Virus record (IMG/VR): IMGVR_UViG_3300007734_000460
Coordinates: 1-21,363 of that record
Reading direction: 5' to 3' (one strand)
Length of the DNA stretch: 21,363 nt
Source of the DNA: a virus
Under the pieces are notes generated by a model, which was not told the DNA's origin, did no database searches, and saw nothing but the letters and a program-made list of their open reading frames with translations. A program made the translations under genes and the position numbers. This document shows positions 1 to 20,540 of this stretch, piece by piece (position 1 is the first letter of the stretch; each line of letters begins with the position of its first letter).

Positions 1-328
1 GGTTCCGCACAGCGATTTTCCCCTAGCTACGAAAATACTAAGAGTGAACGGTGCTGGATAGTTTTTATCCATCTGTTTTCGGGCGTCTTGACCCAACCAC
101 GTTTGCGGGAGATTTGGGAAGAATGTTTTAGTTCGCTTGCGTTTCGTCGAACGGGCGCGACCCGTAAGGCTAAGTTTTGATCGTGTCAAGATTATACGCT
201 TTTTACAGATAAAGGTTTTGACACCCACTTGCATCTAGTGCATAGCTTTCCTCGCGCCCGTTGCGGTCTTTGGTGTTTTTCATCCGTGGCGGGCGCATCT
301 TTTCCAATCCAACCAATTCGACAACTCT
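1..328. other. Gene-free leader upstream of terminase; possible packaging-site region
   Basis: I find no convincing gene in these 328 bases; the short open frame that starts at 229 overlaps the small terminase in another frame and has no family features. The stretch holds a promoter candidate (218-246), a perfect 5-bp inverted repeat ACGGG/CCCGT at 151-165, an overlapping GTTCG/CGAAC pair at 131-152, and the A/C-rich leader of the terminase gene (304-319). In lambda-like phages the packaging recognition site lies just before or within the small terminase gene, so this is where a cos or pac site would be expected. No sequence match to a known cos site is claimed. Confidence 0.4.
218..246 (+). 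promoter_or_regulatory. Promoter candidate P1 for the packaging operon
   Basis: A perfect -35 TTGACA (218-223) is followed after 17 bases by CATAGC (241-246), a weak -10 (3 of 6). The 9-mer GTGCATAGC at 238-246 recurs at 5179-5187 with the same 20-base offset from a TTGAC box, which is the main reason to take the weak -10 seriously. It would give a leader of about 75 bases before the small terminase ATG at 329. Not verified experimentally. Confidence 0.4.
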
Positions 329-757
329 ATGGAATACCTCGGAGTAAATCAGGCCAGCCGACTTACAGGCAAGTCGCCCACCACAGTTACGCGGCGTGCG
401 GCGAATCTCCCGTTTCTTGGCGGCGAGAACGGGACGGCGAAGAAGTATGAAGCACCCGCATTGCTGGAAGCCCTCTATTGCGGCGGGACTGGCGGCGGCG
501 ATAGTTCAGCCGTTAGCACCGAGCAGGCGCAAAAAGAACTAGCGATTGCTCGCAAGCAGCAGATTGACCTACAAAACGAAGTCCTCCGCAAAGAGCGAAT
601 ACCTCTTGAAGTCGTGGAACAAATCAACCAAGAGGCATTTGCGAACATGGCCGCAATGCTGAAGGCGCACACGGGAAAGACGCTTACCGAGGAACTGATT
701 AACGACATTTACACTCAGCACCGCGACATTGCGGACAAGGTGAAAGAGGCGGTATGA
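329..757 (+). CDS. Terminase small subunit (Nu1-like)
   Basis: The 142-residue product fits the DNA-recognition subunit of the packaging motor. Residues 1-45 read as a small helix-turn-helix unit (VNQASRLTGKSPTTVTRR) of the kind used by lambda Nu1 to bind the packaging site. Residues 65-105 are a charged helix of the type QKELAIARKQQIDLQNEVLR followed by RIPLEVVEQ, the usual Nu1-family coiled-coil linker, and the C-terminal helices would contact the large subunit. The start ATG has no Shine-Dalgarno sequence but follows an A/C-rich leader with AACCAAT. The stop overlaps the next gene as ATGA, as expected for translationally coupled terminase subunits. Family assignment is by motif pattern and position; identity to a named phage is not claimed. 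Confidence 0.8.
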   Translation: MEYLGVNQASRLTGKSPTTVTRRAANLPFLGGENGTAKKYEAPALLEALYCGGTGGGDSSAVSTEQAQKELAIARKQQIDLQNEVLRKERIPLEVVEQINQEAFANMAAMLKAHTGKTLTEELINDIYTQHRDIADKVKEAV

Positions 758-2688
758 CCGACACCATTTCCGCCGCATCCTACCGCCAGAGCATCGCGCT
801 ACAAATACAGAAGAACTTTGCGCCGTGGTCGAAGATGGCCCCGGAGGAATGGGCGGAAGAAGTCTATCGCCTACCAAATGGCGGGCGGTTCAAGTGGGAG
901 TTCGCGCCCTACACATTAGGGATGTATCGCAGTATGTTCGACCGGCGCGTGATTGAAACCAGCTATCAGATATTTTCTCGCGGGCTAAAATCCACCGTCA
1001 TATTGCTCGCCATTGGCTACACCATAGACCAAGCGCCCCGCAAGATTCTCTACATGATGCCGACGACTGGACAGGTGGAGAAGTTCAGCAAAGACAACCT
1101 ATGCGGCGAGCTATTGGACACCACGCCTTGCCTTAATGATTACGGCAGCAAGGGCAACCGTCGAATCACCAGCAACACGATACTGCACAAGAAGTTTCCC
1201 GGCGGATTGATCGGGATGTTTGGGGCGAACGCAGCGGGCGAGCTTAGGCGCGCAAAGGGATCGTTTCTCATCATTGACGAAAAAGACGCAATCACCAAGG
1301 AACAGACCGACGAAGGCGATCAGGTGCAAATCTTCTGGAAACGTGGTTCTGAATATCCTGATACCGTTCGTGTCTCCGCAAGCTACCCGTCGCTATTGGG
1401 CAACTCGCGCATTGCTGCCGACTTGGAAAACTCAGATTTTAATGAGTGGTTTTCTACGTGCGTGCGCTGTGGCGGTGAGCCTTACGTCATGTCACGAAAG
1501 ATGCTTCGCTACGACAAGGACAAGCCGCACGAAGCGCGCATGGAGTGCCCGATGTGCAAGGAGTTGTTGACCGATGAAGAGCGTTATCAGATGGCGCACA
1601 AACAGGGGTTTGACAACTGGCGGGCAAGGAATGAGTTCAAAGGGATGCGCGGCTTTCACGCAGGCGCAATGCTTTGGCCGCACCCGACCGACCCCGTAAA
1701 ATATCCCGCTGGTTTCCTTGGGATGTTGGCACAGCAAGAGCTAGAAGTTGCCGCCAGCGAAGAGCCGCGCCGTGCAATGCGCGTGCTTGTCAATACCGTG
1801 GATGCGCTGCCATTCGATCCGACCGACGAAACGGAAACGCCGCCTGAATGGAAGGCGGTTTATGACAAGCGTGAAGATTACGGCCTAATTGTGCCGGAGC
1901 GCGGGCTTGTGCTCACCGCTTTTGTGGACGTTCAAGTGAATCGCCTTGAAGTGGAATGGAAAGCACACGGCAGGAACGGTGAATCATGGGGCATGGATCA
2001 CGTTGTTCTCGACGGAAACACGCGGGACGTTGAAGTGTGGCGCAAATCGCTTTGTCAGGAGTTCCGTCGCAAGTTTAAGCACGCACTTGGCGGTGAAATC
2101 GGGTTGAGTATCGCCATGATAGACGGCGGATGGGCGTCTGAATACGTGTTCAGCTTCCTGCAATGGCTCGCCGAGAAGCCGATTGAAGGAGTGACGGGCA
2201 AAGTGCGCGCAAGCAAGGGCATGGGGCAGCACGGGCACCCGATTATTGACAGGAATTGGAAAACCATCTCCAAAAACTTGAAGGGCTACCATATCGGCAC
2301 ATGGGAAGCGAAGGATTTGATCAATCAAAGGCTGAGAATGACGCCAGATGCAGAGGGAAAACACCCGGACGGCTTCATGCACTACAATAAGCGTTACGAT
2401 GAACAGTATTTCCGCCAGCTTTGCACCGGCATCCCGACTATCGTATTTGAGAAAGTGAAGGGCAAGATTGAGGACGTGCGAAAGTTCCTCAACACAGCGC
2501 ACCTAAAAGACGAAGGGCTTGACTTGGCCGTTGGCAACCTCGCCGCGTTCCGTTTGCGCCAGTGGAATTTTGACGCGATTGAGGCAAAGATTATTGAGGA
2601 CGGAAAGCCAAAGGAGCAGCCGCCAGAACCGAAGGAGCAGAAAAGGCCGATTGGCTTCATCCATCAGCCTGCGGGGGCGTGGATTTAA
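754..2688 (+). CDS. Terminase large subunit, lambda gpA family
   Basis: This 644-residue protein is the packaging ATPase and nuclease that pumps DNA into the prohead and cuts concatemers. Seen in the sequence: a Walker-A-like SRGLKST at residues 75-81, Walker B FLIIDEKD at 171-178, a CX2C pair at C236/C239 and a second at C265/C268 (the zinc-ribbon-like insertion common in gpA proteins), FVDVQ at 390-394 and MIDGGW at 455-460 with acidic residues expected in the nuclease site, and LDLAVGNLAAF near 589-599, close to the conserved gpA C-terminal motif. Length is near lambda gpA (641). It overlaps the small subunit by ATGA and ends in a TTAA shared with a leftward gene. The C-terminal 30 residues are rich in K, E and P and probably flexible. 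Confidence 0.95.
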   Translation: MTDTISAASYRQSIALQIQKNFAPWSKMAPEEWAEEVYRLPNGGRFKWEFAPYTLGMYRSMFDRRVIETSYQIFSRGLKSTVILLAIGYTIDQAPRKILYMMPTTGQVEKFSKDNLCGELLDTTPCLNDYGSKGNRRITSNTILHKKFPGGLIGMFGANAAGELRRAKGSFLIIDEKDAITKEQTDEGDQVQIFWKRGSEYPDTVRVSASYPSLLGNSRIAADLENSDFNEWFSTCVRCGGEPYVMSRKMLRYDKDKPHEARMECPMCKELLTDEERYQMAHKQGFDNWRARNEFKGMRGFHAGAMLWPHPTDPVKYPAGFLGMLAQQELEVAASEEPRRAMRVLVNTVDALPFDPTDETETPPEWKAVYDKREDYGLIVPERGLVLTAFVDVQVNRLEVEWKAHGRNGESWGMDHVVLDGNTRDVEVWRKSLCQEFRRKFKHALGGEIGLSIAMIDGGWASEYVFSFLQWLAEKPIEGVTGKVRASKGMGQHGHPIIDRNWKTISKNLKGYHIGTWEAKDLINQRLRMTPDAEGKHPDGFMHYNKRYDEQYFRQLCTGIPTIVFEKVKGKIEDVRKFLNTAHLKDEGLDLAVGNLAAFRLRQWNFDAIEAKIIEDGKPKEQPPEPKEQKRPIGFIHQPAGAWI

Positions 2689-2972
2689 CCGCGCCTATGT
2701 TCAAAGCACGGATGCCCGCTATATTGCGTCGGCCACGCCGTAGCTGGCACATCCAGCTTTAGGCAATGACCGGAAAATCGAGTCAACCAGCCAACTTTCT
2801 TCATCGCCCCGCGCTTGAAATGGCGGCAGTCATTGCAGTCCGCATCTATGGTTTGCATGGCGATCACGGCAGCGTCGTCTAGCTTCGCGTCGAATTGATC
2901 GGACTCGATCAACTGCTGTTTCGTCATTCTCTCTTTATCGAGAACGGTGGGCGTGCTCCAATAGCGTTTCAT
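2685..2972 (-). CDS. Small Cys-rich (putative zinc-binding) phage protein
   Basis: Leftward gene of 95 residues inside a rightward late cluster. It carries CNDCRHFKRG (C46, C49, H51), a second GHC (C70) and PCFEHRR (C89, H92), a spacing that suggests one metal site; similar C..C-HFKRG...CFEHRR proteins are frequent, uncharacterised phage products. The start at 2972 is supported by a leader AACCAATC reading leftward (in 2978-2986), the same motif used before rightward genes; a second ATG lies at residue 16. The stop codon overlaps the terminase stop within TTAA at 2685-2688, so the two genes converge with a 4-base overlap. Function unknown; a regulatory or host-interaction role is possible but not shown. 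Confidence 0.75.
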   Translation of the reverse strand: MKRYWSTPTVLDKERMTKQQLIESDQFDAKLDDAAVIAMQTIDADCNDCRHFKRGAMKKVGWLTRFSGHCLKLDVPATAWPTQYSGHPCFEHRRG

Positions 2973-2998
2973 ATTTAGATTGGTTGACGCGAAAGAAA

Positions 2999-3016
2999 GC
3001 CGCCATTGCGGGCGGC
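2999..3016. repeat. Hairpin between divergent genes
   Basis: Perfect 6-bp stem GCCGCC/GGCGGC with a six-base loop, between the leftward Cys-rich gene and the rightward phosphoesterase. Read leftward it is followed by CTTTCTTTC, so it could be a weak intrinsic terminator for transcription coming from the right; it could also be an operator. Only the inverted repeat is certain. Confidence 0.4.
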
Positions 3017-3047
3017 GGCAAGATAAATCTTTTCCGCTTTACAACTA

Positions 3048-4079
3048 ATGGATGCAAGGCTAGGCAATGGTTCCATGACCAAAGAAGCACCCGTGAAAAC
3101 CGAGGCCGTGAATCTTTGTCGCCGCTTCCCCACTCTTCCAGCGCGAACACTGGCGAGGATGTTGAATCGAGATCACCCTCACCTTTTTACCACCGTAGAA
3201 CGCGCCCGCACCGCAGTAAGAAATGTGATGGGACTTCTTGGGCCGAGCAATCAAAAAAGGGCGGTTGCCGATCTTGTCCGCCCCAAGCGCAATGCTGGTG
3301 AATGGGAAGGCGTGCCCGTAGGATCCCGCGAAATTGACTGGCGCACCTTCGACGTGGACGGCAAGGCGCGGTGCCTTGTGCTGTCTGATATTCACATCCC
3401 GTTCCATGATGACAAGGCGCTGATTTTGGCGCTGAAACAAGGGAAGCGGGATAAGTGCGACGTTATACTCCTAAATGGAGACATCATGGATTGCTACAAG
3501 CACGGGCGATGGGAAAACGATCCACGCTATTACCCGTTCAAGGAAGAGTTGTCCTACACGATTGCTTTCTTTGAAACCTTGCGCGAAAACTTTCCGAAGG
3601 CGCGCATTATTTGGAAGCTCGGCAACCACGAAGATCGCTACATGATTGCGATGAAGAAAGACCACGCCGTCTTTCTCGATGTGCCCGACTTCGATTTGGC
3701 AAAACTGACACACGCCGACAAGCTCGGCATCGAAATGGTGGACAACATGAGACCGATCCGCTTAGGAAAGCTATTCGTTCTCCACGGCCACGAATACCGC
3801 TTTTCAATCAGCAACCCCGTGAATCCAGCGCGTGGCTTGTTTATGCGGGCAAAGGTAAATGTGATGTGCTCGCACTTCCATCAGACATCGCAGCACAGCG
3901 AGAGCGACCTTGACGGAAAGGTTGTTAGCGCGTTCTCAATCGGCGCGTTATGTGACCTGCATCCGCGCTATGCGCCATTAAATAAATGGAATTTGGGCTA
4001 TGCCAAGGTGGAGACGGATAGTGAGGGCAAGTTTGAAGTGAACAATTACCGCATCGTTGACGGGAGGATATACGCATGA
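3048..4079 (+). CDS. Calcineurin-like metallophosphoesterase
   Basis: The 343-residue product has the full metallophosphoesterase motif set: LSDIHIPFHD (D114, H116), NGDIMD (D145), GNHED (N193, H194), SHFH (H276, H278) and HGHE (H246, H248), which together bind two metal ions and hydrolyse phosphate esters. Residues 25-65 look like a helical DNA-binding segment (ARMLNRDHPHLFTTVERARTAV), a frequent N-terminal extension in phage members. The substrate cannot be told from sequence; nucleic acid or nucleotide processing is a reasonable guess. The start is ambiguous: ATG 3048 follows an A/C-rich TACAACTA leader, and ATG 3075 (residue 10) gives a tidier N terminus. The stop overlaps the next gene as ATGA. 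Confidence 0.9.
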   Translation: MDARLGNGSMTKEAPVKTEAVNLCRRFPTLPARTLARMLNRDHPHLFTTVERARTAVRNVMGLLGPSNQKRAVADLVRPKRNAGEWEGVPVGSREIDWRTFDVDGKARCLVLSDIHIPFHDDKALILALKQGKRDKCDVILLNGDIMDCYKHGRWENDPRYYPFKEELSYTIAFFETLRENFPKARIIWKLGNHEDRYMIAMKKDHAVFLDVPDFDLAKLTHADKLGIEMVDNMRPIRLGKLFVLHGHEYRFSISNPVNPARGLFMRAKVNVMCSHFHQTSQHSESDLDGKVVSAFSIGALCDLHPRYAPLNKWNLGYAKVETDSEGKFEVNNYRIVDGRIYA

Positions 4080-4279
4080 CCAAAGACGAGCTATGGGCGG
4101 CGTTTGTCAGGAAAAACCCCGCATTACTTGCGGCAAATGTCACGTTTTCCGCCGCCGGCGTGCGCCACTTCTTCAACCGCACTTTTGAGATTGCACTTGA
4201 GGAAGGCGAGTATGACATTCCAAAGAAAAACGGCGCAGATATTCCAGATTTTCTGAAACAATTCCTAAGACCACGATGA
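4076..4279 (+). CDS. Small conserved-looking phage protein, function unknown
   Basis: A 67-residue soluble protein beginning MTKDELWAAFVRKNPALL and rich in helix formers, with no cysteine and no membrane segment. It overlaps the phosphoesterase upstream and the next small gene downstream by ATGA at both ends, which makes it very likely translated by coupling. The N-terminal phrase DELW-AFVRKNP with a later RHFFNRTFE segment looks like a recurrent small phage protein found near terminase genes, but I cannot attach a function. Confidence 0.75.
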   Translation: MTKDELWAAFVRKNPALLAANVTFSAAGVRHFFNRTFEIALEEGEYDIPKKNGADIPDFLKQFLRPR

Positions 4280-4485: not shown

Positions 4486-4489
4486 TCCC

Positions 4490-4621: not shown

Positions 4622-4677
4622 CTACGACCAGGACGAAACGCACGGCATGATTATCGGCACCCTAATCACTTTCACAG

Positions 4678-5087: not shown

Positions 5088-5090
5088 TAT

Positions 5091-5112: not shown

Positions 5113-5116
5113 CTTA

Positions 5117-5158: not shown

Positions 5159-5187
5159 TTGACTTGCGTTAGTGTTTCGTGCATAGC
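5159..5187 (+). promoter_or_regulatory. Promoter candidate P2 for the head operon
   Basis: TTGACT (5159-5164), 17 bases, CATAGC (5182-5187). The last nine bases, GTGCATAGC, are identical to P1 at 238-246 and sit at the same distance from TTGAC. The predicted start point near 5194 is only a few bases before the ATG at 5197, so the transcript would be nearly leaderless. A perfect 5-bp hairpin CGTGC/GCACG (5178-5193) overlaps the -10 and could be an operator. Confidence 0.4.
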
Positions 5188-7558: not shown

Positions 7559-8575
7559 ATGAAAACTCTCAAGATTCCAAACCAACTATTCCGCGAAGGA
7601 ATGTCACAAGTTGACAATGGCACATTGCGCCTAAGCATTTGCAGCGACATTCCATACCTCCGCTATAATTGGGCAGACGGTGAACAATACTACGAGGTGC
7701 TCGACCACAGCGAAGGCAGCATTGATTTGTCCCGTCTTAGCAACGGCGCGGCATTGCTGTTTAATCACAAACGCGACATTCAAATCGGACTGATTGATTC
7801 ACCTTCGATTGAGAACGGGCGCTGCTACGTTAACGCCAAGCTATCAAACGCTCCGGACGTTGCCAGCTACAAGACTCGCGTTGAGGAAGGCATATTGAAA
7901 GACACCTCCATCGGCTACGAGGTTACGGACGACGGAACGCCAATCGGAGAGATTGAGGGAATCCCCGCATACAAATTCAAATTCGCAATTCACGAAGCAT
8001 CGCTAGTGACAATTCCCGCCGATCCTACGGTTGGCCTTGGACGTTCTCGCAGCGAAGAGCCCAAGTGCGGACTCAAAGAAATCAACATCGGCGAGAAAAA
8101 GGCGCTTGACTTAACGCAAGTAAGTTGCAATAAGCAAAACATGACGAAGGAAAACGAAGTCGCAGAAACGCCAGTGGAAAAACCGACACCAGCCGAAACT
8201 CCCGCGCCCGCAGTTGTGGAAACTCCTACGGAAACGCCCGTTGAAACTCCCGCCGCTGAACTATCGGCAGAGGAAGTAAAAGCCGCCGCAATTTCTGGCG
8301 AACGCACTCGCGTTGCAGAACTTCGCAAGTGGGCAAAAGACATTTCCGCACTTCGCCACATTGATCTAAACGACGCGCTCTTTACTCACATCGAGGATGG
8401 CAAATCGCTACCAGATTTCAAAGAGTGGGTTTTGGAGAACGAGTTCAAATCCAAACCAACCGCATTTTCATCCGAAACATCCGGCGCAAATGTGCTTTCG
8501 CGCTCTGCGTTCACCGCTCTTTCACCAAGCGAGCAAGCCGCCCACTGCATGAATGGCGGAAAGATTAAAGACTAA
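7559..8575 (+). CDS. Prohead protease with C-terminal scaffold-like region
   Basis: A 338-residue protein after the portal. Residues 1-165 show the HK97-type prohead protease pattern: GAALLFNHKRD (catalytic His likely H70), VEEGILKDTSIGYEV (nucleophile likely S117), and HEASLVTIPADPTVGLGRS (145-163). The protease matures the head by digesting scaffold and trimming the coat. Residues 200-236 are a P/T/E-rich linker and 237-338 are helical and charged, fitting a scaffold. An internal ATG at codon 195 (8141) is preceded by DNA that otherwise occurs only between genes in this window, so the scaffold may also be made alone, as lambda Nu3 is from gene C. The leader before 7559 holds TAACGCAAG and AACCAAAC but no Shine-Dalgarno. 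Confidence 0.88.
   Translation: MKTLKIPNQLFREGMSQVDNGTLRLSICSDIPYLRYNWADGEQYYEVLDHSEGSIDLSRLSNGAALLFNHKRDIQIGLIDSPSIENGRCYVNAKLSNAPDVASYKTRVEEGILKDTSIGYEVTDDGTPIGEIEGIPAYKFKFAIHEASLVTIPADPTVGLGRSRSEEPKCGLKEINIGEKKALDLTQVSCNKQNMTKENEVAETPVEKPTPAETPAPAVVETPTETPVETPAAELSAEEVKAAAISGERTRVAELRKWAKDISALRHIDLNDALFTHIEDGKSLPDFKEWVLENEFKSKPTAFSSETSGANVLSRSAFTALSPSEQAAHCMNGGKIKD
8121..8137 (+). repeat. Boundary repeat copy 1 (inside protease gene)
   Basis: TAAGTTGCAATAAGCAA, identical to 10618-10634. Here it is read as codons of the protease gene but sits four bases before the internal ATG at 8141. It directly follows TAACGCAAG (8112-8120), which elsewhere lies 24-28 bases before start codons. Confidence 0.85.
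8141..8575 (+). CDS. Candidate nested scaffold protein (internal start in the protease gene)
   Basis: In-frame internal start giving 144 residues: MTKENEVAETPVEKP, a P/T/E-rich stretch, then helices with GERTRVAELRKWAKDISALRHID and LPDFKEWVLENEFK. Size and character resemble phage scaffolds. The 29 bases before the ATG contain TAACGCAAG, then a 17-base string found exactly once more, in the true intergenic spacer before the tail tube candidate. Lambda gene C with nested Nu3 is the precedent. Production of a separate protein is inference. Confidence 0.45.
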   Translation: MTKENEVAETPVEKPTPAETPAPAVVETPTETPVETPAAELSAEEVKAAAISGERTRVAELRKWAKDISALRHIDLNDALFTHIEDGKSLPDFKEWVLENEFKSKPTAFSSETSGANVLSRSAFTALSPSEQAAHCMNGGKIKD

Positions 8576-8612
8576 CCAATCACAACTCACAACTCTCAAA
8601 TAACTAACTCAA

Positions 8613-9767: not shown

Positions 9768-9795
9768 TAGCGACCCGCAATAGCAGCTTCAAAAG

Positions 9796-9831
9796 GGCCG
9801 CGCATCGTAGCGATACGGGCGCGGCCTTTTT
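9796..9831 (+). terminator. Intrinsic terminator after the capsid gene
   Basis: GGCCGCGC (9796-9803) pairs perfectly with GCGCGGCC (9819-9826), followed by five T residues (9827-9831) and preceded by AAAAG. The loop contains a small second stem ATCG-TAG-CGAT. It separates the head module from the connector and tail genes; the next ATG comes nine bases after the T run, so readthrough or a promoter further upstream must supply the tail genes. Confidence 0.85.
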
Positions 9832-10172: not shown

Positions 10173-10606
10173 GCAACTTCGCTGAATACGATATTGAGCG
10201 CATGGTCATTACCATTCTCGCCGCGCAGACGGATTTGCCAGCGGCATTGCACCGCGACGTTGACGATGGCGCGGACAAGGACAGAATCATCGTGAAATGC
10301 GACCCGCGAGAGGTGGAGCTTGGCAACAAAGATGAGGGAGAAGCGCCGTCCCGTTGGGGCGCGGAGTTGACCGTTGAAATGCGGCTTGCCAGCATTACCG
10401 ACATGGCGAAGTTGCAGCTATGGAGCACGGCCATTGACGCCGCTTTTGCTGGCTCTCCACCGGCAGCAACCACGGCTCTTTTCAACACGCTTTACGGCGC
10501 AACGAACGGCTATTTTCAAATCAAAGCCGCAGACGGCGGAAGTCGGCAAGGGCCGGGATCGCAAGTGCGCGAATGGTCACGAACTTTTCGCGTAGTTACG
10601 TCTTGA
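10169..10606 (+). CDS. Putative tail terminator / tail completion protein
   Basis: A 145-residue protein coupled by ATGA to the connector. An N-terminal helix (AEYDIERMVITILAAQTDLPAALHR) is followed by DRIIVKCDPREVEL, then an alternating strand and helix pattern (AELTVEMRLA, ITDMAKLQLWSTAIDAAF) and a final strand SRTFRVVTS. This plan, a helix, a strand with R-DPR, a helix and a last beta strand, fits gpU-like or HK97-gp10-adjacent tail terminators, which cap the tail tube. The assignment rests on position and fold pattern, not on a recognised sequence match. Confidence 0.55.
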   Translation: MSNFAEYDIERMVITILAAQTDLPAALHRDVDDGADKDRIIVKCDPREVELGNKDEGEAPSRWGAELTVEMRLASITDMAKLQLWSTAIDAAFAGSPPAATTALFNTLYGATNGYFQIKAADGGSRQGPGSQVREWSRTFRVVTS

Positions 10607-10617
10607 CTAATCGCCAC

Positions 10618-10634
10618 TAAGTTGCAATAAGCAA
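10618..10634 (+). repeat. Boundary repeat copy 2 (intergenic)
   Basis: Exact second copy of the 17-base string at 8121-8137, here in the 52-base spacer before the tail tube candidate. It is followed by two tandem AACCAATC motifs (10638-10645 and 10648-10655) spaced ten bases apart, the second ending three bases before the ATG at 10659. Confidence 0.85.
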
Positions 10635-10658
10635 CAAAACCAATCCCAACCAATCCGC

Positions 10659-11078
10659 ATGAAACTCTTACTCTTACTTTTTTATACCATGACTATCATC
10701 GGAACAGCAGGCCCAACGCACGGAATCCCCGCCGACGAAACGGGCATCCTCATCAAATCTCTCGGACTCAGCTTTGAGCCTGAGTTCACCGACCCGCTCA
10801 CAAACCGCGAAGGCGAGCGCATCAACGAAGCGCGTGGCGCGATTTGCAACAAAATCAGCATCACGGGCGAAATCAATTCTGCCACGGGCATTGTTGACGC
10901 AACTTTCTACGCCGCCGTCACGCTGACAAACACACTCGGCGTCACGGGCGCAACCGCCAACGGGCTTCTGCCAATGGCTGTGGGCGGCGTGTATATGAAC
11001 AGCGCCAAGGTGGATCAATCCGCTACGGGCTGGAAAACTCTCTCGGCTGAATACCAGCAATACGCTGGAATCGCCTAA
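10659..11078 (+). CDS. Putative tail tube protein
   Basis: A 139-residue protein at the position of the major tail protein, between the tail terminator candidate and the chaperone pair. The core from residue 11 (TIIGTAGPTHGIPADETGIL, then LGLSFEPEF, ISITGEINSATG and LSAEYQQYAG) is glycine- and beta-rich as expected for a tube subunit. The first ten residues, MKLLLLLFYT, are hydrophobic and unlike tube proteins. Two starts are possible: ATG 10659 directly follows the double AACCAATC leader, while ATG 10689 (residue 11) gives a typical tube N terminus. Both cannot be judged without peptide data. Confidence 0.6.
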   Translation: MKLLLLLFYTMTIIGTAGPTHGIPADETGILIKSLGLSFEPEFTDPLTNREGERINEARGAICNKISITGEINSATGIVDATFYAAVTLTNTLGVTGATANGLLPMAVGGVYMNSAKVDQSATGWKTLSAEYQQYAGIA

Positions 11079-11128: not shown

Positions 11129-11141
11129 ACCAATCAAACCA

Positions 11142-11645
11142 ATGGATCAGTTTTTCTCGACGCCTTCAACTCCTCTCGCAATCACGCTTGAGCTTCTAGG
11201 CGTCCCGTGGGTAAATCCGCAGTTCCCATGCGCGATGACATACACGGACAAGTTTCTCGCCGAACACAAGCGGCATCTTGTCAGCCGTGGCAAATGGGAG
11301 ACGGAAACCCCGTTTACGCCGCAGGACGCGCAACGACTCGACCTAGTAGATCAATGCACCTACTTTTTCCAGAAAACACCGCTTCTTTCCGTGGTATTGA
11401 AAGGATGGGAAAAAGGGTGTCAGGCGATCAGAAACGCCGATTTTCGCATGGATATTGACACTATCCAAGAGGAAGAAGCCGCAACCCTACTGGCAATCGC
11501 CCTTGGCCCGAACGGGAAGCGGGCACGCATGATAGCCATGATGAAAAACGCCGTCGCAAGCCTTGCGGTGCAAGCGGAGAACGGCGACTGGGCATTTTTT
11601 GGCAAAGACGCCACCGCAGAGACAGTTCAACATCTAACCCAATAA
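11142..11645 (+). CDS. Tail-region protein, function unknown
   Basis: A 167-residue soluble protein between the tube candidate and the chaperone. It starts MDQFFSTPSTPLAITLELLGVPWVNPQFPCAMTY and is largely helical after residue 45, with QRLDLVDQCTYFF and IQEEEAATLLAIALGPNGKRARMIAMMK. There is no transmembrane segment or recognised motif. It may assist tail assembly, given its position. The start is well marked: the ATG itself lies in AACCAATG, with a further ACCAATC just upstream. Confidence 0.6.
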   Translation: MDQFFSTPSTPLAITLELLGVPWVNPQFPCAMTYTDKFLAEHKRHLVSRGKWETETPFTPQDAQRLDLVDQCTYFFQKTPLLSVVLKGWEKGCQAIRNADFRMDIDTIQEEEAATLLAIALGPNGKRARMIAMMKNAVASLAVQAENGDWAFFGKDATAETVQHLTQ

Positions 11646-11652
11646 AACCAAT

Positions 11653-12051
11653 ATGGAAACACTGACAGACGACAACGCACCATCAACGCCCGCTCATATC
11701 TCGCAAGACATGGGGCGCGTGTTCACCTTCGCGGGCATCACGCTTAAACCTTTTTCCTTCAATCGCCGCGTCACGTTCTTTCGCGTGCGGACCGACGACA
11801 TCAGCGTTATCGAGTCGGCAATCTTGAAGCTGTTCATTTGCACGCAATCACCCGCGCAATGCGATTCTGCCCGTGGCGATGCCGCAAGCGCGTTTCGCGT
11901 AAAGGCTATGGAATGGGCGGAAAAGCTCGGCATTGACAGCGCAGCGCGCACCAAAGAGGCAATGGAAGTGTCTGACGCAATAGACAAAGACCTGTCTGAC
12001 GCATTGAGCGTGGAGCCGGACACAAAGGGCAGCGCATCGGGAAACGTCTGA
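11653..12051 (+). CDS. Tail assembly chaperone, short form (gpG-like)
   Basis: A 132-residue protein with an N-terminal beta segment (RVFTFAGITLKPFSFNRRVTFFRV) and helices (ISVIESAILKLFICTQ, AFRVKAMEWAEKLG, AMEVSDAIDKDLSDAL). Its place just ahead of the tape measure region and the frameshift signal at its end identify it as the short form of the lambda G/GT type, which coats the tape measure protein and recruits tube subunits. AACCAAT ends directly at the ATG. Sequence similarity to lambda gpG itself is not evident; the call rests on the frameshift architecture and position. Confidence 0.7.
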   Translation: METLTDDNAPSTPAHISQDMGRVFTFAGITLKPFSFNRRVTFFRVRTDDISVIESAILKLFICTQSPAQCDSARGDAASAFRVKAMEWAEKLGIDSAARTKEAMEVSDAIDKDLSDALSVEPDTKGSASGNV

Positions 12052-12281
12052 CGCCGGGCGGTGCAGCGTTCTACGTAGGCACTATCTCGGCAGTCACCTT
12101 GGGCAGTATGACGCCCGAACAAATCTTATGGGAGCTATCGCAGGCAGACGGCGAACGGCTGGAAAATACTTGGTGGCTTACGACGGCAAATGAAATGGGG
12201 AAGAACCAGCTACGGCACACCCGCAAATCGAAGCCCGTGAATGTGGCTGATTTCATGGCTATCAAAAAAAGCGTAAAATAA
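11653..12281 (+). CDS. Tail assembly chaperone, frameshifted long form (gpGT-like)
   Basis: Predicted product of a -1 ribosomal slip at 12039-12045. Reading the short form through residue 131 and continuing in the -1 frame from 12045 gives about 209 residues; the extension reads RLTPGGAAFYVGTISAVTLG, then MTPEQILWELSQADGERLEN, and ends at 12281. The -1 frame is open from 12000 only to 12281, and contains no strong start of its own except a TTG (12099) and an ATG (12108). The phrase ILWEL followed by a helix is a recurrent feature of chaperone second-frame domains. In lambda this domain binds tube subunits. The frameshift itself is predicted, not shown. Confidence 0.7.
12039..12045 (+). other. 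Programmed -1 frameshift slippery heptamer
   Basis: GGGAAAC placed in the reading frame as G GGA AAC, the X XXY YYZ pattern. Lambda uses the close relative GGGAAAG at the same point of its chaperone gene. The zero-frame stop TGA follows two codons later. Downstream bases 12052-12069 can form small stems (CGCC with GGTG, ACGC with GCGT) that may stimulate slippage; these are weak. Confidence 0.75.
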
Positions 12282-12379
12282 TGTTGACGGAATGGCGGCG
12301 ATACGCTTTCTTTGCGGAAACCAATGAAACCAAAAAACAAAAAGCCAAAGTTCAGCGTTCAGGAAGAATCTATGATTAG
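12281..12379 (+). CDS. Possible 32-residue protein overlapping the next gene
   Basis: The stop of the chaperone long form overlaps an ATG as TAATG, opening a 32-codon frame (MLTEWRRYAFFAETNETK, then a basic tail). It overlaps the gene at 12324 in another frame. It may be a real coupled small gene, or the remnant of a tail gene interrupted by the accessory cassette. Evidence is only the start/stop overlap. Confidence 0.2.
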   Translation: MLTEWRRYAFFAETNETKKQKAKVQRSGRIYD

Positions 12380-13231: not shown

Positions 13232-14055
13232 AACTCACCGCCGAACAAGAGGCTTATAGAATTAGCCGAGTGCAAGCATCGCTAAAAGGACATCCGCCAA
13301 CAGACTTGCAAAGAAAGGCGCGCGCCGAAGGACTCAGAAAAGCATGGGCAGAAGGCCGTATAAAGCCCAATTCAACGCCGGAATCTATCAAAAAAACAGC
13401 CGACAAATTACGCGGAAGAAAACGACCAGCGGATGTAATAGCCAGGATCGCCAAATCAAATACAGGAAAGAAGCGAACACCAGAGCAGATCGAAGCGTTT
13501 AGGCAAATACAACTTGCAGGCCGAGCTGCCGGAAAATACAAGTCATCTCCAGAAGGCGCTGAGCGACGAAGGCTCGCGGCAATCGCCGCCCACTTGGGTA
13601 TTCCAAGAACAGAAGAACAGAAACGCCGACATTCAGATATAATGCGCGGAAGGAAGGCGAAGCCGGAACACGTAGAGAAGAGGATCGCGCCGATGATTGG
13701 GAGAGAACAAAAAGCTACACTCACATCGAAGGGGCCGACTAATCATGGCAGCATTGATGGCGTATTAAGGGATGCGAAAGGGCGGATTTGGCATTTCAGA
13801 AATCTCACTCATTTTGTTCGGACGCATCAGGAATTATTCGACCCAAAGGATTTAGTTATGAAACCAGCAGGACGCGGACGCAGGCAGCTATTTTGTAACG
13901 CAGCCAAGCGGCTTCTTCAGCTTTTTAAGAATGGAAAGAAAACGCTGGCGACATGGAAAGGCTGGACGGTCGCCTTTTCCATAATGGAGCGCGCAGAAGG
14001 CGGTGGCGACTTACTAGGGCGCGATTGCGCGACAGTGGTTGAACTTGCCAAATAA
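13228..14055 (+). CDS. NUMOD3-type DNA-binding protein, no nuclease domain seen
   Basis: From ATG 13228 (ATGA overlap with the ligase-like gene) this gives 275 residues. The first 160 are very basic and contain repeated short units of the NUMOD3 kind known from homing endonucleases: TPESIKKTADKLRGRKRPAD, the following SNTGKKRTPEQIEAFRQ, and TEEQKRRHSDIMRGRKAKPE. The C-terminal part has HGSIDGVLRDAKGRIWHFRN, LTHFVRTHQELF and TWKGWTVAF, a segment that recurs with NUMOD units in phage proteins. No HNH, GIY-YIG or LAGLIDADG motif is visible, so it may bind DNA without cutting, or use an unrecognised active site. AGA/AGG and ATA codons in the first half suggest transfer. A farther upstream start at 13078 would overlap the ligase by 150 bases and is rejected. 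Confidence 0.7.
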   Translation: MKLTAEQEAYRISRVQASLKGHPPTDLQRKARAEGLRKAWAEGRIKPNSTPESIKKTADKLRGRKRPADVIARIAKSNTGKKRTPEQIEAFRQIQLAGRAAGKYKSSPEGAERRRLAAIAAHLGIPRTEEQKRRHSDIMRGRKAKPEHVEKRIAPMIGREQKATLTSKGPTNHGSIDGVLRDAKGRIWHFRNLTHFVRTHQELFDPKDLVMKPAGRGRRQLFCNAAKRLLQLFKNGKKTLATWKGWTVAFSIMERAEGGGDLLGRDCATVVELAK

Positions 14056-14079
14056 CCCGCGCCCGCGCATAGTCGGCGC

Positions 14080-14790: not shown

Positions 14791-14816
14791 CGCAATTTGT
14801 TTGCAATAGGCGGGCG

Positions 14817-17243
14817 TTGGTTTATACGAAGCGCAAACCTATGTCAGCGACCGCAAAAGGAGAAGTCGAGATCGTATTAAGAATGTCCGAATCTGCGATG
14901 AACGCGCAGGTTCTCGCGGCACAGACAGCGGCGGCGAAGTCATCCACGGACAACGCGGCATCACACGAACGTCAGGTTATGTCTCAGCTTGCGCTTGAGC
15001 GGAAGCGGTTTGTTGCTGAGGGGCTGGCAAATGAAGTGGCGGCACTTGATCAAGTTGTCGCAATGCGGAAAAAGGCATACGACTACAAATCGCAAGGCTT
15101 TTCTCAAGAGCGCGCAACAGGAATGGCGAGGCAGGAAGTTCTCTATGACACAGAGATCGCCGCCAAACAAAAGGCGGCTGAACTTGCTAAGAGCATTGAG
15201 GCATCGCAGGCCTCTCTTAATGCTCAGAAATTAAAGGAACTGGAAACCGCCCGCCAGATTGCAGAAAAGCAATCCGCGATTTCCGCCGCCAATGGAAGAG
15301 AGCAGCTGGCGATACAAAAGAAGATTAAGCTTATGGCCGCAGTCGCGGCGGGAGATAATCAGCGTGAGTCTCATCTAAAAGCGATGGCGGCGCTAGAGAG
15401 GAACGTGCAATTAGGGCTGAACGCTGGTTTAAAGCCATCAGAGGCGTTGCAGCAGGCGCGCACGATGCTGCGGCTTGAGCAAAACATTTCACAAGAAAAA
15501 CAGAAGCAGCAAAGTATTGGCGGAGGGAAGGGCGGCGATGCTTATTCTGGCGCTCGCCGTGGCCCCGCTTTCGCCGGAGGTCAAAACGCAGCCTCTCGCG
15601 TAGGGATGCTTTCACAGCAGGCGCAGGACGTGGCCGTGTCGCTGCAAATGGGAATGAGCGCAAATCGCGTCATTGCGCAGCAAGGATCGCAGATTGCCTC
15701 TATATTCGGCTCTAAGGGCAGGGTCATCGGCGGCGTTATTGCGATTGGCGCGGCGATATACGAATGGGCTGCAAATACCAAGGCGGCAGAAAAAGCCGCC
15801 GAAGAATACAAAAAGGTATTGGATGAAACCAGCAAGATTGCCGAGAAAAACGCCGCCAGCAGAATTGAGATTGCATCAAAAATAGCGGGCGCGCTTGGTG
15901 GGCAAGAGGCTGGAGAAAGGTCAGCGGAAGAATTGAAATACAGCAAGGAGCTAAACGAAATCCATCAAAAGGAAATCGCACTTCTCGCCACGATTGCCGA
16001 CAAAAAAAGGCGCATTACGGAAGATAACCTACGGAACGCAAGAGACACGCGGCCATCTAGGATAATCACCGAGAAACAATCCCCCGGCGTCATCCGCGCA
16101 CTATCTGGAGAAGAATCTCAGTTGATTGAGCTTGCCACGAGAAAGAAGCAAATGGCGGAAGAGATCAATGTTGATAGGTCTATCCGCGCCAAGAAAAAGG
16201 AGGATGCCGTTAATTTCGCTACATGGAGCACCGGCGAGCAAATCAAGATGCTTTCGATTGAGTCTGAGCAGGAGAAGAAATACGCACAGCTTGAGCACGA
16301 ATTTAAGAGCGACCTTGTTCAGATTGAAATGAGCGACGAAACGGCGCTGCAGAAAATAAAGCGCACCAACGCCGCCGAGAATCTTTATGCAGCAAAGTTG
16401 GAGATAGAGGCAAAAACGGAAGAGGCAAAAATAAAGAAGAAAGACCAAGATCAATTTATGAACTCGCCCGACGTGAAGGTGCGAGCGGAAGCCATCAAGA
16501 ACGAGCGGAAGTTGCAAGAGCAGGGCGAAACCCACGCGGATAAGTTGCTTTCGATCTCCGAAAAGATAGGCGCGCTGAATATGGAAAAGCTGAGTATCGG
16601 AATGACCGAGGCGCGCGGTGACGAGATTCGATTGGCGTTATCAAAGCTGGAATTGGAAAGGTCGGCGGCGATGAAAGATGCATCCGAGGACATTGTAAAA
16701 AAGGCGAATGAGGAATACAATTTCGCGGCAAGCATGAACGCAATCGTGCGAGATACTTCCGCCACGCGGCTTGAGGTTTTGCGCGAAGAACGGGCATTAC
16801 TCGACAAAAAGATTGCATGGACGCCAAACGAAATTGCGCTGCTTAACGCTCAAAAGGTCAAGATAGATCAAGACATCCAGAAGCAACAGCGCGACGGGCT
16901 GATTGCGGCGGGCGGTGCCGGTATGGGCGTTGTAGCGCAACAAATGGCGGCAGACAAGGCGCAGGAAAAGGCATTGAATCGCGCCCGTAAAAACCTTGGA
17001 CTTGGACAAATCAAGCGCGGCATGAGCGGCGAGATTATCGGCGGCGTGAACCTTGATCCTAATTCTGGAAAAGTTGGCGAAAGTGTGGGGCCGGAAGAAA
17101 TCGCACGCAGGCAAAGACTGCTTGGAGTTGTAGCGGGCGGAGGCAACCTTCCAGTGCCAGCAAATGCGGTTTTTGACCAAAATCAAATCAAGGCGATTTC
17201 TGACGGCATTGCATTGGCGGTTTTTGCACTCATCACCAAATGA
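14817..17243 (+). CDS. Tape measure protein
   Basis: An 808-residue, largely coiled-coil protein, the longest in the window. Residues 264-300 hold the tape-measure signature LSQQAQDVAVSLQMG, then ANRVIAQQGSQIASIFG, followed by a hydrophobic segment near 302-317 (RVIGGVIAIGAAIYEW) that probably enters the host membrane during DNA ejection. Long Ala/Lys/Glu helices flank it on both sides. It sets tail length, and a tail of roughly 110-120 nm would follow from the usual 0.15 nm per residue rule, which is a rough estimate only. The frame opens at TTG 14817; ATG 14841 (residue 9, MSATAKGEVEIVLRM) is a more usual start. The stop overlaps the next gene as ATGA. Confidence 0.92.
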   Translation: MVYTKRKPMSATAKGEVEIVLRMSESAMNAQVLAAQTAAAKSSTDNAASHERQVMSQLALERKRFVAEGLANEVAALDQVVAMRKKAYDYKSQGFSQERATGMARQEVLYDTEIAAKQKAAELAKSIEASQASLNAQKLKELETARQIAEKQSAISAANGREQLAIQKKIKLMAAVAAGDNQRESHLKAMAALERNVQLGLNAGLKPSEALQQARTMLRLEQNISQEKQKQQSIGGGKGGDAYSGARRGPAFAGGQNAASRVGMLSQQAQDVAVSLQMGMSANRVIAQQGSQIASIFGSKGRVIGGVIAIGAAIYEWAANTKAAEKAAEEYKKVLDETSKIAEKNAASRIEIASKIAGALGGQEAGERSAEELKYSKELNEIHQKEIALLATIADKKRRITEDNLRNARDTRPSRIITEKQSPGVIRALSGEESQLIELATRKKQMAEEINVDRSIRAKKKEDAVNFATWSTGEQIKMLSIESEQEKKYAQLEHEFKSDLVQIEMSDETALQKIKRTNAAENLYAAKLEIEAKTEEAKIKKKDQDQFMNSPDVKVRAEAIKNERKLQEQGETHADKLLSISEKIGALNMEKLSIGMTEARGDEIRLALSKLELERSAAMKDASEDIVKKANEEYNFAASMNAIVRDTSATRLEVLREERALLDKKIAWTPNEIALLNAQKVKIDQDIQKQQRDGLIAAGGAGMGVVAQQMAADKAQEKALNRARKNLGLGQIKRGMSGEIIGGVNLDPNSGKVGESVGPEEIARRQRLLGVVAGGGNLPVPANAVFDQNQIKAISDGIALAVFALITK

Positions 17244-18031
17244 TCTACCTAAATTCCAAAGGCGAAACATTCGAGGAACAGCCGGGCGCGCAACTCTCGA
17301 TTGACGCATGGGGGTTGGATTCCATCACGCGAAAGTATAGCGGCAAGGTGGCGAACATTCCCGATTTCATCAAGACGCTGCGCAAAAATCGCAATAAGCC
17401 GGATGAAGAATACAACGCGCTCACGCTTGGCAACTACACTATCACTAAAGGGCGGGCATGGGCGGAAGTGGATGTGAACTACAAGGGCACGTTTGACGGC
17501 AAGCTGCCAGCGCCGATTATCAGCGGGGGCGGTATGAGCACGCAGACCGTGCAACTCGATTACAAGGATAGCATGACGGAGCAACTGACTACCGCGCTCA
17601 ATATCACCTACACGAAGCCGACAACCACGCTCACCTATAAAGCGCCCGGCGTCGGTATCAAATACGTGTTGCGCAATCGTCCATCCGTTGCCACGTATCC
17701 GCAGGAGCTTGGCGGCATCACGCCGACCATCCAGATTGTCAATCAGACGGGCGCACGCGGCGGCATTGCTATCGTGCCGTTGTCTCAGCCGCGCATCAGC
17801 AACGTGCCCGTGTATTACGGCGTTGACCCCGACACGGGCGAGCTTGTTCCCGCCGCGTTCCCCGCGAAAGAATATCTATTCAACGGCATCGCTAACATTG
17901 TCAACGAAGGGCCGACATGGACACAGGAAGGGCAATACTATCTGTGCGAGGAGCGCAATCAGGTTGTCATCATGCCATTCGATTTCGCCTCTCTCCTTTG
18001 GAATATCAACTTGAACCAATCGCAGCCGTAA
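17240..18031 (+). CDS. Tail protein downstream of tape measure
   Basis: A 263-residue protein, ATGA-coupled to the tape measure gene. It is beta-rich: MIYLNSKGETFEEQPGAQLS at the start, TQTVQLDYKDSMTEQLTTAL in the middle, then IVNQTGARGGIAIVPL, VYYGVDPDTGELVPAAFP and a C-terminal VVIMPFDFASLLW. There are no cysteine clusters or membrane spans. In siphophages this slot holds the distal tail or minor tail protein that links the tube to the tip; that is the likely role, but the family is not recognised. Confidence 0.55.
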   Translation: MIYLNSKGETFEEQPGAQLSIDAWGLDSITRKYSGKVANIPDFIKTLRKNRNKPDEEYNALTLGNYTITKGRAWAEVDVNYKGTFDGKLPAPIISGGGMSTQTVQLDYKDSMTEQLTTALNITYTKPTTTLTYKAPGVGIKYVLRNRPSVATYPQELGGITPTIQIVNQTGARGGIAIVPLSQPRISNVPVYYGVDPDTGELVPAAFPAKEYLFNGIANIVNEGPTWTQEGQYYLCEERNQVVIMPFDFASLLWNINLNQSQP

Positions 18032-18034
18032 CCG

Positions 18035-18859
18035 ATGCCACGCATTGACGCCGAAGCAAAGAACATCCCGCAGTTTGAAGGCGGCAATGTGAAACAGCGC
18101 GACCACTTAAACAAGGTGGTGGATGCGCTGAATCACGCCAACAACATGATTGAGGCGTTAGAAGTTGCCAACGGCGCACAAAACCCGCTGCAAATGATTG
18201 TCGGCAACGCACGCGGCGACCGTCTCTCACTCGTCGAAGTTGCCAACGCCAATCACATTGCCGACTTCGGCGCGTTTCACCCCACGAAGCTGACACCTTG
18301 GCAGCCGTTCATCACTGGCGCGGACACAAATGAGCAGGGGCGGTGCAAACGGCTTTACGTGGACTTCAACCCGCTTTCCACCCTTTGGGGTATGGCGAAT
18401 AGCGAATGGGACAACACGAGTAAGCAATGGGATAAGCAAGTTGACATCACCAACTTTGCGGTGCCGACGCACGATCCAGTTTCCGTTACCAGCGGCACGG
18501 ATGTAATCTGGCTGGAGGTAGTTGTCGGCGCATACCTATCACTAACAAGCGCCACCCTTAAAAGCGGGCCGCGTTGGGCAACATGGCCGAAAAGCTACTC
18601 CAAGACGGGCGGCGGAGCCGGGGAGACGGTTGTGAGCGGGGCTACGATTTACCAACTCCTTGTCAGCTTCCGCCCCGCCCGCACCGAAACGCAGTTTGAA
18701 AAGGTGGATGTCATTTTCGAGGACGGCGTGAAATACGCCATGATTCAGCACACTTGCAATGATTTGATCGTCGGCATCCTGCGCCAAAACTACGGCTCAG
18801 GCGCAATCGGCGACTTCGTTGCCCTTCTACCTTGGTTTAAGACTTACAAGGGTTCTTGA
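18035..18859 (+). CDS. Tail tip or minor tail protein, function unknown
   Basis: A 274-residue protein starting three bases after the previous stop (TAACCGATG). Residues 1-55 are helical and polar (GGNVKQRDHLNKVVDALNHA, then NNMIEALEVANGA), which could make a short trimeric coiled coil. The remainder is beta-rich and tryptophan-rich, with YVDFNPLSTLWGMANSEWDN, VIWLEVVVGAYLSLTSATL, GATIYQLLVSFRPAR and a C-terminal FVALLPWFKTYKG. This design, a helical trimer start and beta body, suits a tip or adhesion subunit. No homology is claimed. Confidence 0.5.
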   Translation: MPRIDAEAKNIPQFEGGNVKQRDHLNKVVDALNHANNMIEALEVANGAQNPLQMIVGNARGDRLSLVEVANANHIADFGAFHPTKLTPWQPFITGADTNEQGRCKRLYVDFNPLSTLWGMANSEWDNTSKQWDKQVDITNFAVPTHDPVSVTSGTDVIWLEVVVGAYLSLTSATLKSGPRWATWPKSYSKTGGGAGETVVSGATIYQLLVSFRPARTETQFEKVDVIFEDGVKYAMIQHTCNDLIVGILRQNYGSGAIGDFVALLPWFKTYKGS

Positions 18860-18893
18860 CAATGACCAATAACGCAAGCTACTAACAATAACG

Positions 18894-20537
18894 ATGACTC
18901 CCGCAATCTGGAATATCAACCTACAAGACGAGACGGCATCTGGATTGCTCGCCAGCGCATCCTCGGAAAGCCTTGCTCAAAATCCCGCTTTTATTCGCAG
19001 GGACGGGCGGGATCGCAGCCTTCGCTTTCTGTCTTCCGTTGGCAGCGGCTTTGACGACGCCAACATTGACGCATCTTCGCTGGTGGAGGTTGCCATCGGC
19101 ACGCCCGACGATCCGCCAACTTCCGGCACGTTCACCATTACTTTCGGGGCCAATACCACGTCGTCACTTAACTTTGACGCATCCGCTTCCGCCGTTTCCG
19201 CCGCACTGAATCTACTCGCGTCCGTCATTGCGGCTGGCGGAGTTTCCGTGCAGAAAGACGGCGGATTATACATTGTATCATTCACCGCAGTAGGTGCGCG
19301 TTCGCTCATGGTGTTAAACAAGGGCACGCTTTCGCCCGCCATTGTTGACACGAACAACGTCCTAGAAGTGCAAACGGGCGATGCCAACACGCGGGAAGTG
19401 CAAGTGATCGTGCTCAAGAAAGGTTATCTCGCCTATTCCTCAGACTTCGCGCAAGACGCAAGCGGCAGCATTTCACAGACGAATATCCAGACTGGCACGA
19501 CCAGCCTCCCGCAGATTACGCGCATCGCCATCAGCGGCAACGTGAAGGGCGGAAGCTGGATTCTCAACACTTCCCGCGCGCAAGTTGTCACGATCTATTG
19601 TCCCACTGGCACCCTTGGCTATGTCGGTGGCGGTTACATCATCCTGACCGATGCCACCGGCACCGTTGGCGTGTGGATCAACTCCGGCTCGACCACGATG
19701 CCCGCCGCCGTCGCCGCTTGTGACCGCAATATCGAAGTGACAGGCGTATTGATCGGCGACACCGCCCCGCAGGTTGCCACAAAGGTTGCCGCCTTCATTG
19801 ACAACGATTCGCAATTCGTAGCCGCATCGGGCGGCACGGCGATAATTACAGTTACACAGTCTTACAGCGGCCCGCGTTCATTCCCGCTCACCAGCGGCGT
19901 TTATGGAGTGGCGGAAACCACGGCTGGCTATTCCATCGCCGCCAGCTTCCCATACGACGCCACTGCGCAAACCATCAGCGCGCAGCTAGGTAACTATTAC
20001 TATGTCAACAAAGTCACGGACAAAGAATGGGAATTGACAGGCCGCACCGTCGGCGCGCAAGCCTCGCTCACCCTGACCAGTAATCTCCTTTGGGAAAAGA
20101 CATGGACAGGCACACTTTCACTATCCACATGGGCGATGTATGTCGAGTTTGCCACCGCTGGCACGGATGAAATCACGCGCACCTTTGAGGTTCAGGTGAC
20201 ACAGCCAAGCGATGCGCCGATTAAAGCACTGTCCATTTCCTGCACAATCCGCCGCGATGTGATTGATGTTGGCAACCTGACAACGGCCACGTCTTCGATG
20301 TTCGGTTACTTCAACGGCACGATCACGGGATACACCGGCGGCACGTCAACCGACTTGGATAGCCTTGTGACAACCAATCGCACCGTGCCGGGCCTGCTCG
20401 CCTTCGACCATAGCACAGACGGCGGCGTAGTGTTCAAGCTCCGCGCAGGCACCGACGCCGAAGCAAGCCCGTCCATTATTCGCCCCGACGACTATAACGC
20501 CAGCACTAACGCCAAAGTTTGGCAACGCTTTCAATAA
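18894..20537 (+). CDS. Large beta-rich tail/adhesion protein
   Basis: A 547-residue protein rich in Thr, Ser, Ala and Gly. Seen domains: residues 75-145 (SGTFTITFGANTTSSLNFDA followed by SAALNLLASVIAAGGVSV and YIVSF), a unit common in phage structural proteins; residues 240-330 (GGGYIILTDATGTVGVWINS, AACDRNIEVTGVLIGDTAP, QVATKVAAFID), another recurrent phage tail unit; residues 405-450 an Ig-like pair of strands; and a C-terminal IIRPDDYNASTNAKVWQRF. It is likely a tail-tip or receptor-binding component. The leader has ACCAAT fused to TAACGCAAG (18865-18878) and a consensus TTGACA at 18856, but no clear -10. Confidence 0.6.
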   Translation: MTPAIWNINLQDETASGLLASASSESLAQNPAFIRRDGRDRSLRFLSSVGSGFDDANIDASSLVEVAIGTPDDPPTSGTFTITFGANTTSSLNFDASASAVSAALNLLASVIAAGGVSVQKDGGLYIVSFTAVGARSLMVLNKGTLSPAIVDTNNVLEVQTGDANTREVQVIVLKKGYLAYSSDFAQDASGSISQTNIQTGTTSLPQITRIAISGNVKGGSWILNTSRAQVVTIYCPTGTLGYVGGGYIILTDATGTVGVWINSGSTTMPAAVAACDRNIEVTGVLIGDTAPQVATKVAAFIDNDSQFVAASGGTAIITVTQSYSGPRSFPLTSGVYGVAETTAGYSIAASFPYDATAQTISAQLGNYYYVNKVTDKEWELTGRTVGAQASLTLTSNLLWEKTWTGTLSLSTWAMYVEFATAGTDEITRTFEVQVTQPSDAPIKALSISCTIRRDVIDVGNLTTATSSMFGYFNGTITGYTGGTSTDLDSLVTTNRTVPGLLAFDHSTDGGVVFKLRAGTDAEASPSIIRPDDYNASTNAKVWQRFQ

Positions 20538-20540
20538 ACC

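Follow-up and report, generated by a model that had tools for sequence, protein, structure and literature searches.

The choice of start codon in Shine-Dalgarno (SD)-poor bacteria and in their phages is an open question, and the known cues (A-rich context, low structure and leaderless ends) are diffuse. The phage DNA considered here raises the question of what marks the starts of genes that do not overlap an upstream neighbor. The initial annotation had proposed that a short motif, AACCAAT, takes the place of the SD sequence at such uncoupled genes, either as an initiation enhancer, for example an unstructured element bound by S1, or as a conserved recombination boundary. We analyzed the whole IMG/VR record of 21,363 bases (hereafter, the window), which carries tailed-phage genes, including those for a terminase, a portal, a coat protein and a tape measure protein.

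Relatives were collected as 24 IMG/VR loci from a terminase scan, and further loci were obtained from scans with genes 10169, 5753 and 11653 (genes are referred to by their start positions). The near clade is a mosaic in which most shared genes are ~75-97% identical, while the terminase of several members is only 53-54% identical (window positions 754-2688 against the sister contigs L038-L043, whose other genes mostly show high identity). The terminase of otherwise more distant relatives, at 62-66% identity to that of the window, lies above these values. In the distant relatives L026-L037, the coat protein is ~65% and the portal ~40-52% identical. Starts in the window were read directly and then refined against homologues, and in this way the listed open reading frame starts 3048, 5179 and 14817 were better placed at 3075, 5197 and 14841. 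Near-duplicate contexts, sharing ~70% of positions, were collapsed; relatives share descent, so that the counts below are not fully independent and the z-values are descriptive.

The window contains 13 copies of AACCAAT where 2.8 would be expected, and none of 100 dinucleotide shuffles reached 13. Twelve copies lie on the plus strand, and the single copy on the minus strand lies in the leader of the leftward gene 2972 (Table 1). The exact word was found at each of genes 329, 2972, 8613, 10659, 11142, 11653 and 12324, where the initial annotation had placed it. Among the sites listed there, 18865-18870 is not an instance, being an ACCAAT within a promoter spacer (TTGACA-N17-CTACTA) at which relatives differ, and the copy at 18014-18020 had been overlooked. 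Four further copies are intragenic and away from starts (5629, 7465, 20372 and 20772). For gene 8613 the first base of the motif is 39 nt ahead of the start and falls at the stop codon of the gene before it (TAACCAAT); the word here may be no more than a part of a G-free leader. The spacing between motif and ATG is variable, ranging from overlap to 32 nt, which is unlike a ribosome contact of fixed geometry. As had also been claimed, the exact word is absent from the ATGA-overlap genes 754, 4076, 4276, 10169, 12557, 13228 and 17240, and its orientation follows the gene, the leftward gene 2972 having a copy in its own orientation, also in relatives whose leader has diverged. Uncoupled starts without AACCAAT include 5197, 14080, 18894, 9840 and 4678.

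Table 1. Copies of AACCAAT near gene starts and promoter-like sites in the window.
Feature	Position	Strand	Remark
AACCAAT, leader of gene 329 (terminase small subunit-like)	311..317	+	kept in L038, L040 and L041; AATCAAT in L043
AACCAAT, leader of leftward gene 2685-2972	2979..2985	-	kept in L040, flanks diverged
AACCAAT, head of G-free leader of coat protein gene 8613	8574..8580	+	
AACCAAT, two copies 10 nt apart before gene 10659	10638..10654	+	10638-10644 and 10648-10654; kept in L228
AACCAAT running into ATG of gene 11142	11137..11143	+	ACCAAT also just upstream; kept in L271 and L228
AACCAAT as the entire 7-nt gap before gene 11653	11646..11652	+	
AACCAAT running into ATG of gene 12324	12319..12325	+	
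AACCAAT 14 nt before start 18035, within end of gene 17240	18014..18020	+	weak case, partly conserved
Promoter-like TTGACG-17-TTTCTT	12284..12312	+	-10 end 11 nt before ATG 12324
Promoter-like TTGACT-16/17-CAATAAG before gene 10659	10603..10631	+	
Promoter-like TTGACT-17-CATAGC	5159..5187	+	-10 end 9 nt before ATG 5197
Promoter-like TTGCCA-17-CATAGT	14045..14073	+	-10 end 6 nt before GTG 14080; conserved in nine relatives
Promoter-like TTGCAA-16-TATACG	14801..14828	+	-10 end 12 nt before ATG 14841; then AACCT-ATG
Promoter-like TTGACA-17-CTACTA	18856..18884	+	-10 end 9 nt before ATG 18894; ACCAAT 18865 in spacer

We next consider the leaders themselves. Across 35 non-redundant uncoupled leaders, A is dominant at positions -6 to -4 and C at -3 and -2 (at -3, C 46% and A 26%), and G is depleted. 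Compared with 112 internal in-frame ATGs, 16 uncoupled starts of the window show less pairing (p 9e-5) and, by minimum free energy, less structure (p 3e-7). Pairing of the last 25 nt of the 35 leaders with the anti-SD sequence is weaker than in all 200 shuffles, and the uncoupled leaders do not show the anti-SD complementarity ~5-9 nt from the start that characterizes SD initiation. The earlier statement that no AGGAGG-like sequence occurs at any start holds for the motif-bearing starts, at which no SD-like tetramer was found, but not for genes 4076 (GGGAGGA), 4491 and 12557 (AAGG at both). Gene 4076, which overlaps its upstream neighbor, has its GGGAGGA (within 4057-4079) ~8 nt ahead of the start. 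Relatives keep this sequence, one SD-like site of the window, although it doubles as coding sequence for the end of the protein before it. An Rfam search gave no family match.

To evaluate specificity, we took all 105 arrangements of the same letters and counted, for each, the non-redundant copies found up to 25 nt ahead of an ATG with an open frame of 55 codons or more. AACCAAT ranked first in the window, with 8 of 13 copies before an ATG (mean of the other arrangements, 0.45), and first again in 25 contigs of the clade, with 25 of 46 copies; the other arrangements averaged 2.1 of 12.5 and the next best reached 8. We also ranked all 16,384 heptamers in the 25 clade contigs by their concentration just before the longest ATG start of open reading frames of at least 80 codons. 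AACCAAT was again at the top (17 of 46, z 14.5), with AAACCAA, which overlaps it, coming next. Both analyses are independent of the word chosen in the initial annotation, which would have had to be abandoned if upstream enrichment were lacking; instead, the word leads both rankings. It is specific to the clade: in the distant relatives L026-L037 AACCAAT is not used (rank 58 of 105) and only G-poor, A/C-rich leaders, clearest at the coat gene, are kept.

These results bear directly on a purely compositional explanation, in which G-poor, unstructured leaders in an SD-less host yield AACCAAT-like words whose copies are preserved by descent and recombination. Every uncoupled leader is indeed G-poor and weakly structured, the leaders of distant relatives are A/C-rich without the word, and related leader composition was seen in a Bacteroidota sample and two Verrucomicrobiota samples, although the Bacteroidota loci came from a motif-before-ATG scan, so that their likeness to the phage profile is inflated. 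However, no other arrangement of the letters comes near this enrichment (at most 8 against 25), and we regard composition alone as a rather unlikely explanation. One heptamer standing far above its rearrangements means that sequence-specific recognition, or spread by copying, is also needed. The preference for one exact heptamer is thus not explained by structure alone, and the suggestion of a merely unstructured element is incomplete to that extent.

Recognition could also be by a phage or host regulator of the structural gene set, with AACCAAT as its operator or RNA-binding site, on DNA or RNA. The exactness of the word, its tandem copies 10 nt apart at gene 10659, its presence at structural genes and its variable distance to the start all suit such a site. 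However, the word often overlaps the start codon, is absent at coupled starts and is not palindromic, and no known regulator lies within the fragment. Accordingly, we consider a regulator site unlikely.

Many uncoupled starts also lie close to a promoter. Of the 35 leaders, which were hand-picked, 15 carry a sigma70-like site with a score of at least 6 whose -10 ends 4-14 nt ahead of the start (shuffle mean 1.8, maximum 6). An automated set from the distant relatives gave a near-start -10 in 10 of 31 leaders (shuffle mean 1.4), which indicates that this feature is wider than the AACCAAT word. Strict consensus matches over the whole window do not exceed shuffles; the signal is positional. At start 5197, three different sequences (in the window, L271 and L229) all contain TTGACT-N17-CATAxx at 7-9 nt from the ATG, and a site resembling that at 12284 precedes gene 12557 in L041 and L229. 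The usual distance from a -10 box to the first transcribed base is well established, and from this distance the predicted 5' UTR at near-promoter starts is ~0-8 nt. The mRNAs of many uncoupled starts are therefore predicted to be probably leaderless or nearly so, with the leaderless type of spacing, a -10 within ~4-14 nt of the start, found at a subset of genes only. In the window, the minus strand upstream of leftward gene 2972 carries a hairpin (2999-3019; GCCGCC-loop-GGCGGC, then TTTCTTT), and we did not rely on the candidate promoter there, which overlaps these elements.

Motif and close promoter occur together at 12324, at 10659 and, in relatives, at 2972. At these starts AACC follows the -10 box by ~6-7 nt, close to where transcription is predicted to begin, and 14841 and its counterparts in L261 and L271 have AACCT or AACCA in a similar place. 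Such spacing, which is also found at 14841 and in L229, would be expected if the motif were the initially transcribed sequence at +1 of phage promoters, and TTG-to-motif distances of 35-36 are the most frequent. However, this distance signal is modest in the clade and, for the window taken by itself, weak, being reached in 18 of 300 shuffles, so we rejected a fixed TTG-to-AACC distance. Moreover, genes 11142 and 11653 have the motif and no visible promoter, while 5197, 14080 and 18894 have promoters and no motif. Given that each occurs without the other, a purely transcriptional role is improbable.

Comparison of leaders showed that AACCAAT is kept at the same starts in the near clade. At 11142, 11653 and 10659 the motif stays beside the start even though the upstream DNA is unrelated between relatives. 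The versions of the gene 11142 leader, for example, are GCTTTTACCAATCAAACCA-ATG (window), GACGCAAAACCAATTACAACCA-ATG (L271) and CAACAACCAATCAAATCAATC-ATG (L228), and L228 likewise retains the motif of gene 10659 behind unrelated upstream DNA. For gene 2972, L040 has AACCAAT at near-identical spacing within a leader that has diverged. Gene 12557 offers a natural test. It overlaps gene 12324 by ATGA in the window and has no motif there; in L041, L042, L262, L273 and others the junction upstream is different, TTGACG-N17-CATCTT or a variant is present and AATCAATCC stands directly before the ATG; and in L229 the start reads AACCAAT-ATG. The motif form and the promoter are thus present only in relatives in which the gene is uncoupled. 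Two further arrangements were observed among relatives. The L039 homologue of gene 10659 has CTGA in place of ATG behind an intact tandem motif, one base being missing, with the next in-frame ATG 30 nt downstream, a natural loss of a start codon. Small genes led by ACAAACCAATxxAACCAATG or a form of that leader (L262 3678-3693, L264, L267 and L268) occupy a site where the window has another gene.

The swaps of upstream sequence that extend to the motif at 11142, 11653 and 10659 agree with the earlier suggestion that it is a boundary for short homologous recombination between gene modules, but selection that preserves the motif would leave the same picture. A seven-base word is little for homologous exchange and frequently extends into the ATG, and neither its absence at ATGA junctions nor its gene-wise orientation would be accounted for, so that we consider such a boundary very unlikely. 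Base pairing to a part of 16S rRNA other than the anti-SD, such as the 3' arm of helix 45 (GGUUGGAU), is scarcely credible, because, although AUCCAACC before gene 329 is complementary over 8 bases and CCAACC before 10659 over 6, the 35 leaders do not go beyond shuffles (14% reach their value) and AACCAAT itself matches only 4 bases.

We therefore return to initiation, and give about an even chance to the reading that one phage clade uses an SD-free, start-associated sequence, with AACCAAT as its core, to initiate de novo. What the sequence itself shows points to this reading: where the motif lies and how it is oriented, that the clade retains it, its specificity, the low structure around it, the absence of anti-SD pairing and the promoters close to starts. 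Against it stand the variable spacing between motif and ATG, the uncoupled starts that lack the word and its absence from the distant relatives. The motif sits in short, G-poor, A/C-rich, unstructured leaders of genes that would receive no ribosomes from an overlapping upstream gene, and 30S subunits would begin there at the ATG, de novo and with no need of anti-SD pairing. For genes with a promoter of their own, the -10 box is ~4-20 nt away from the start; the mRNA would then begin at the start codon or a few nt off it, which would put the motif close to the predicted 5' end. Overlapping ATGA genes would use termination-reinitiation and need no motif. Because no promoter is visible alongside the motif at 11142 and 11653, the role of the motif would not be tied to transcription. 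The proposed initiation enhancer thus gains from the link of the motif to the start, in the place of the SD sequence at uncoupled genes and in unstructured A/C-rich RNA. We infer that AACCAAT raises initiation in an SD-poor host and is read by the ribosome, by bS1 or by a phage or host RNA-binding factor. A more specific version, in which the heptamer is a sequence-specific, SD-independent initiation signal recognised by the ribosome or a trans factor at a variable short distance, at the 5' end of near-leaderless phage mRNAs, is possible, and we propose it tentatively.

If the host is SD-poor, then it introduces the question of its identity. It is possibly a member of the Verrucomicrobiota, which we offer as a lead rather than an assignment, because SD-poor leaders, classical -35/-10 promoters and leaderless-type spacing fit this group. 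Akkermansia and Spartobacteria are SD-scarce (PMC10783764), and 10% of start sites are leaderless in Akkermansia against 0.4% in E. coli (PMC4782308). In two Verrucomicrobiota genomes, with crude gene calls, 7-10% of leaders were SD-like and near-start promoters were about twice as frequent as expected (18 against 8.8, and 13 against 6.4); there was no excess in Bacillota (0 against 1.6) or Bacteroidota (2 against 3.1). AACCAAT itself was not enriched at starts in the Verrucomicrobiota genomes G098 and G025, again with crude gene calls. In G025, of the Akkermansiaceae, CAAACCA and AATCC-ATG are the most concentrated words before starts, possibly a related context in a candidate host group. Alignment of the terminase against genome contigs found no relative, and 388 Verrucomicrobiota genomes gave two remote matches, less than 30% identical to it. 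Among the matches listed from phage records, terminases reach at most ~31% identity; coat proteins reach 42-53%, in phages of mixed hosts. Scans of genomes for the motif-before-ATG pattern, with a crude reversed-pattern control, singled out no clade, and some skewed genomes proved to use SD. A search of the relatives for tRNA genes, for host assignment, found none, and our literature search found nothing on point for AACCAAT or an SD-free motif in Verrucomicrobia.

Two other elements of the window were observed. A slippery heptamer, GGGAAAC (12039-12045), lies just before the stop of gene 11653-12051, with an open -1 frame spanning 12000 to 12281. This arrangement would suit a tail assembly chaperone produced through programmed -1 frameshifting, for which it is a candidate. 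A G/C-rich hairpin followed by T5 (9795-9831) lies just before gene 9840; it is present in L041 and L271, is replaced by unrelated sequence in L038 and looks like a movable terminator.

A phage clade with an exact word at many uncoupled starts and at no coupled ones, retained through recombination, offers a discrete and testable cis signal. The swap at gene 12557 and the paired leaders of 11142 and 11653 are ready-made reporter designs, and SD-dependent gene finders may misplace starts in such phages.

Several known systems resemble this one in part. CA-rich translational enhancers, such as the TMV omega leader and CA repeats, are C/A-rich, G-free, unstructured RNA near the start. The likeness is by description, and these enhancers are repeats or long leaders, whereas AACCAAT is a discrete heptamer present once or twice per gene. 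Leaderless and near-leaderless mRNAs, including those of Akkermansia muciniphila (PMC4782308), likewise have a -10 a few nt before the start and no SD. However, they are defined by mapped 5' ends, whereas the -10 positions here are sequence-based, and AACCAAT also occurs at internal operon junctions without a promoter. In Flavobacterium johnsoniae and E. coli, an SD-less, Kozak-like context has A at -3 as its main determinant (PMC6847099). SD-free initiation, low structure and the use of bases just upstream of the start are shared features, low structure being found here as well, but the phage leaders have C at -3/-2, A at -6 to -4 and a discrete heptamer rather than A at -3. In addition, F. 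johnsoniae transcripts are mostly leadered (PMC6847099), whereas here many starts have a promoter 4-14 nt away. The closest parallel described so far is the Start-Associated Sequence (SAS) of Cluster K mycobacteriophages, a short asymmetric repeat immediately upstream of starts whose function is not established (PMC3203893). SAS also has an extended form, with 17-bp imperfect inverted repeats. Like SAS, AACCAAT has nearly always one orientation, stands before different gene families and is conserved among related phages. Unlike AACCAAT, which has no G and no SD core, SAS (GGGATAGGAGCCC; PMC3203893) contains an AGGAG SD core; anti-SD pairing is avoided in the AACCAAT leaders, and copies of the word often extend into the ATG or come in tandem.
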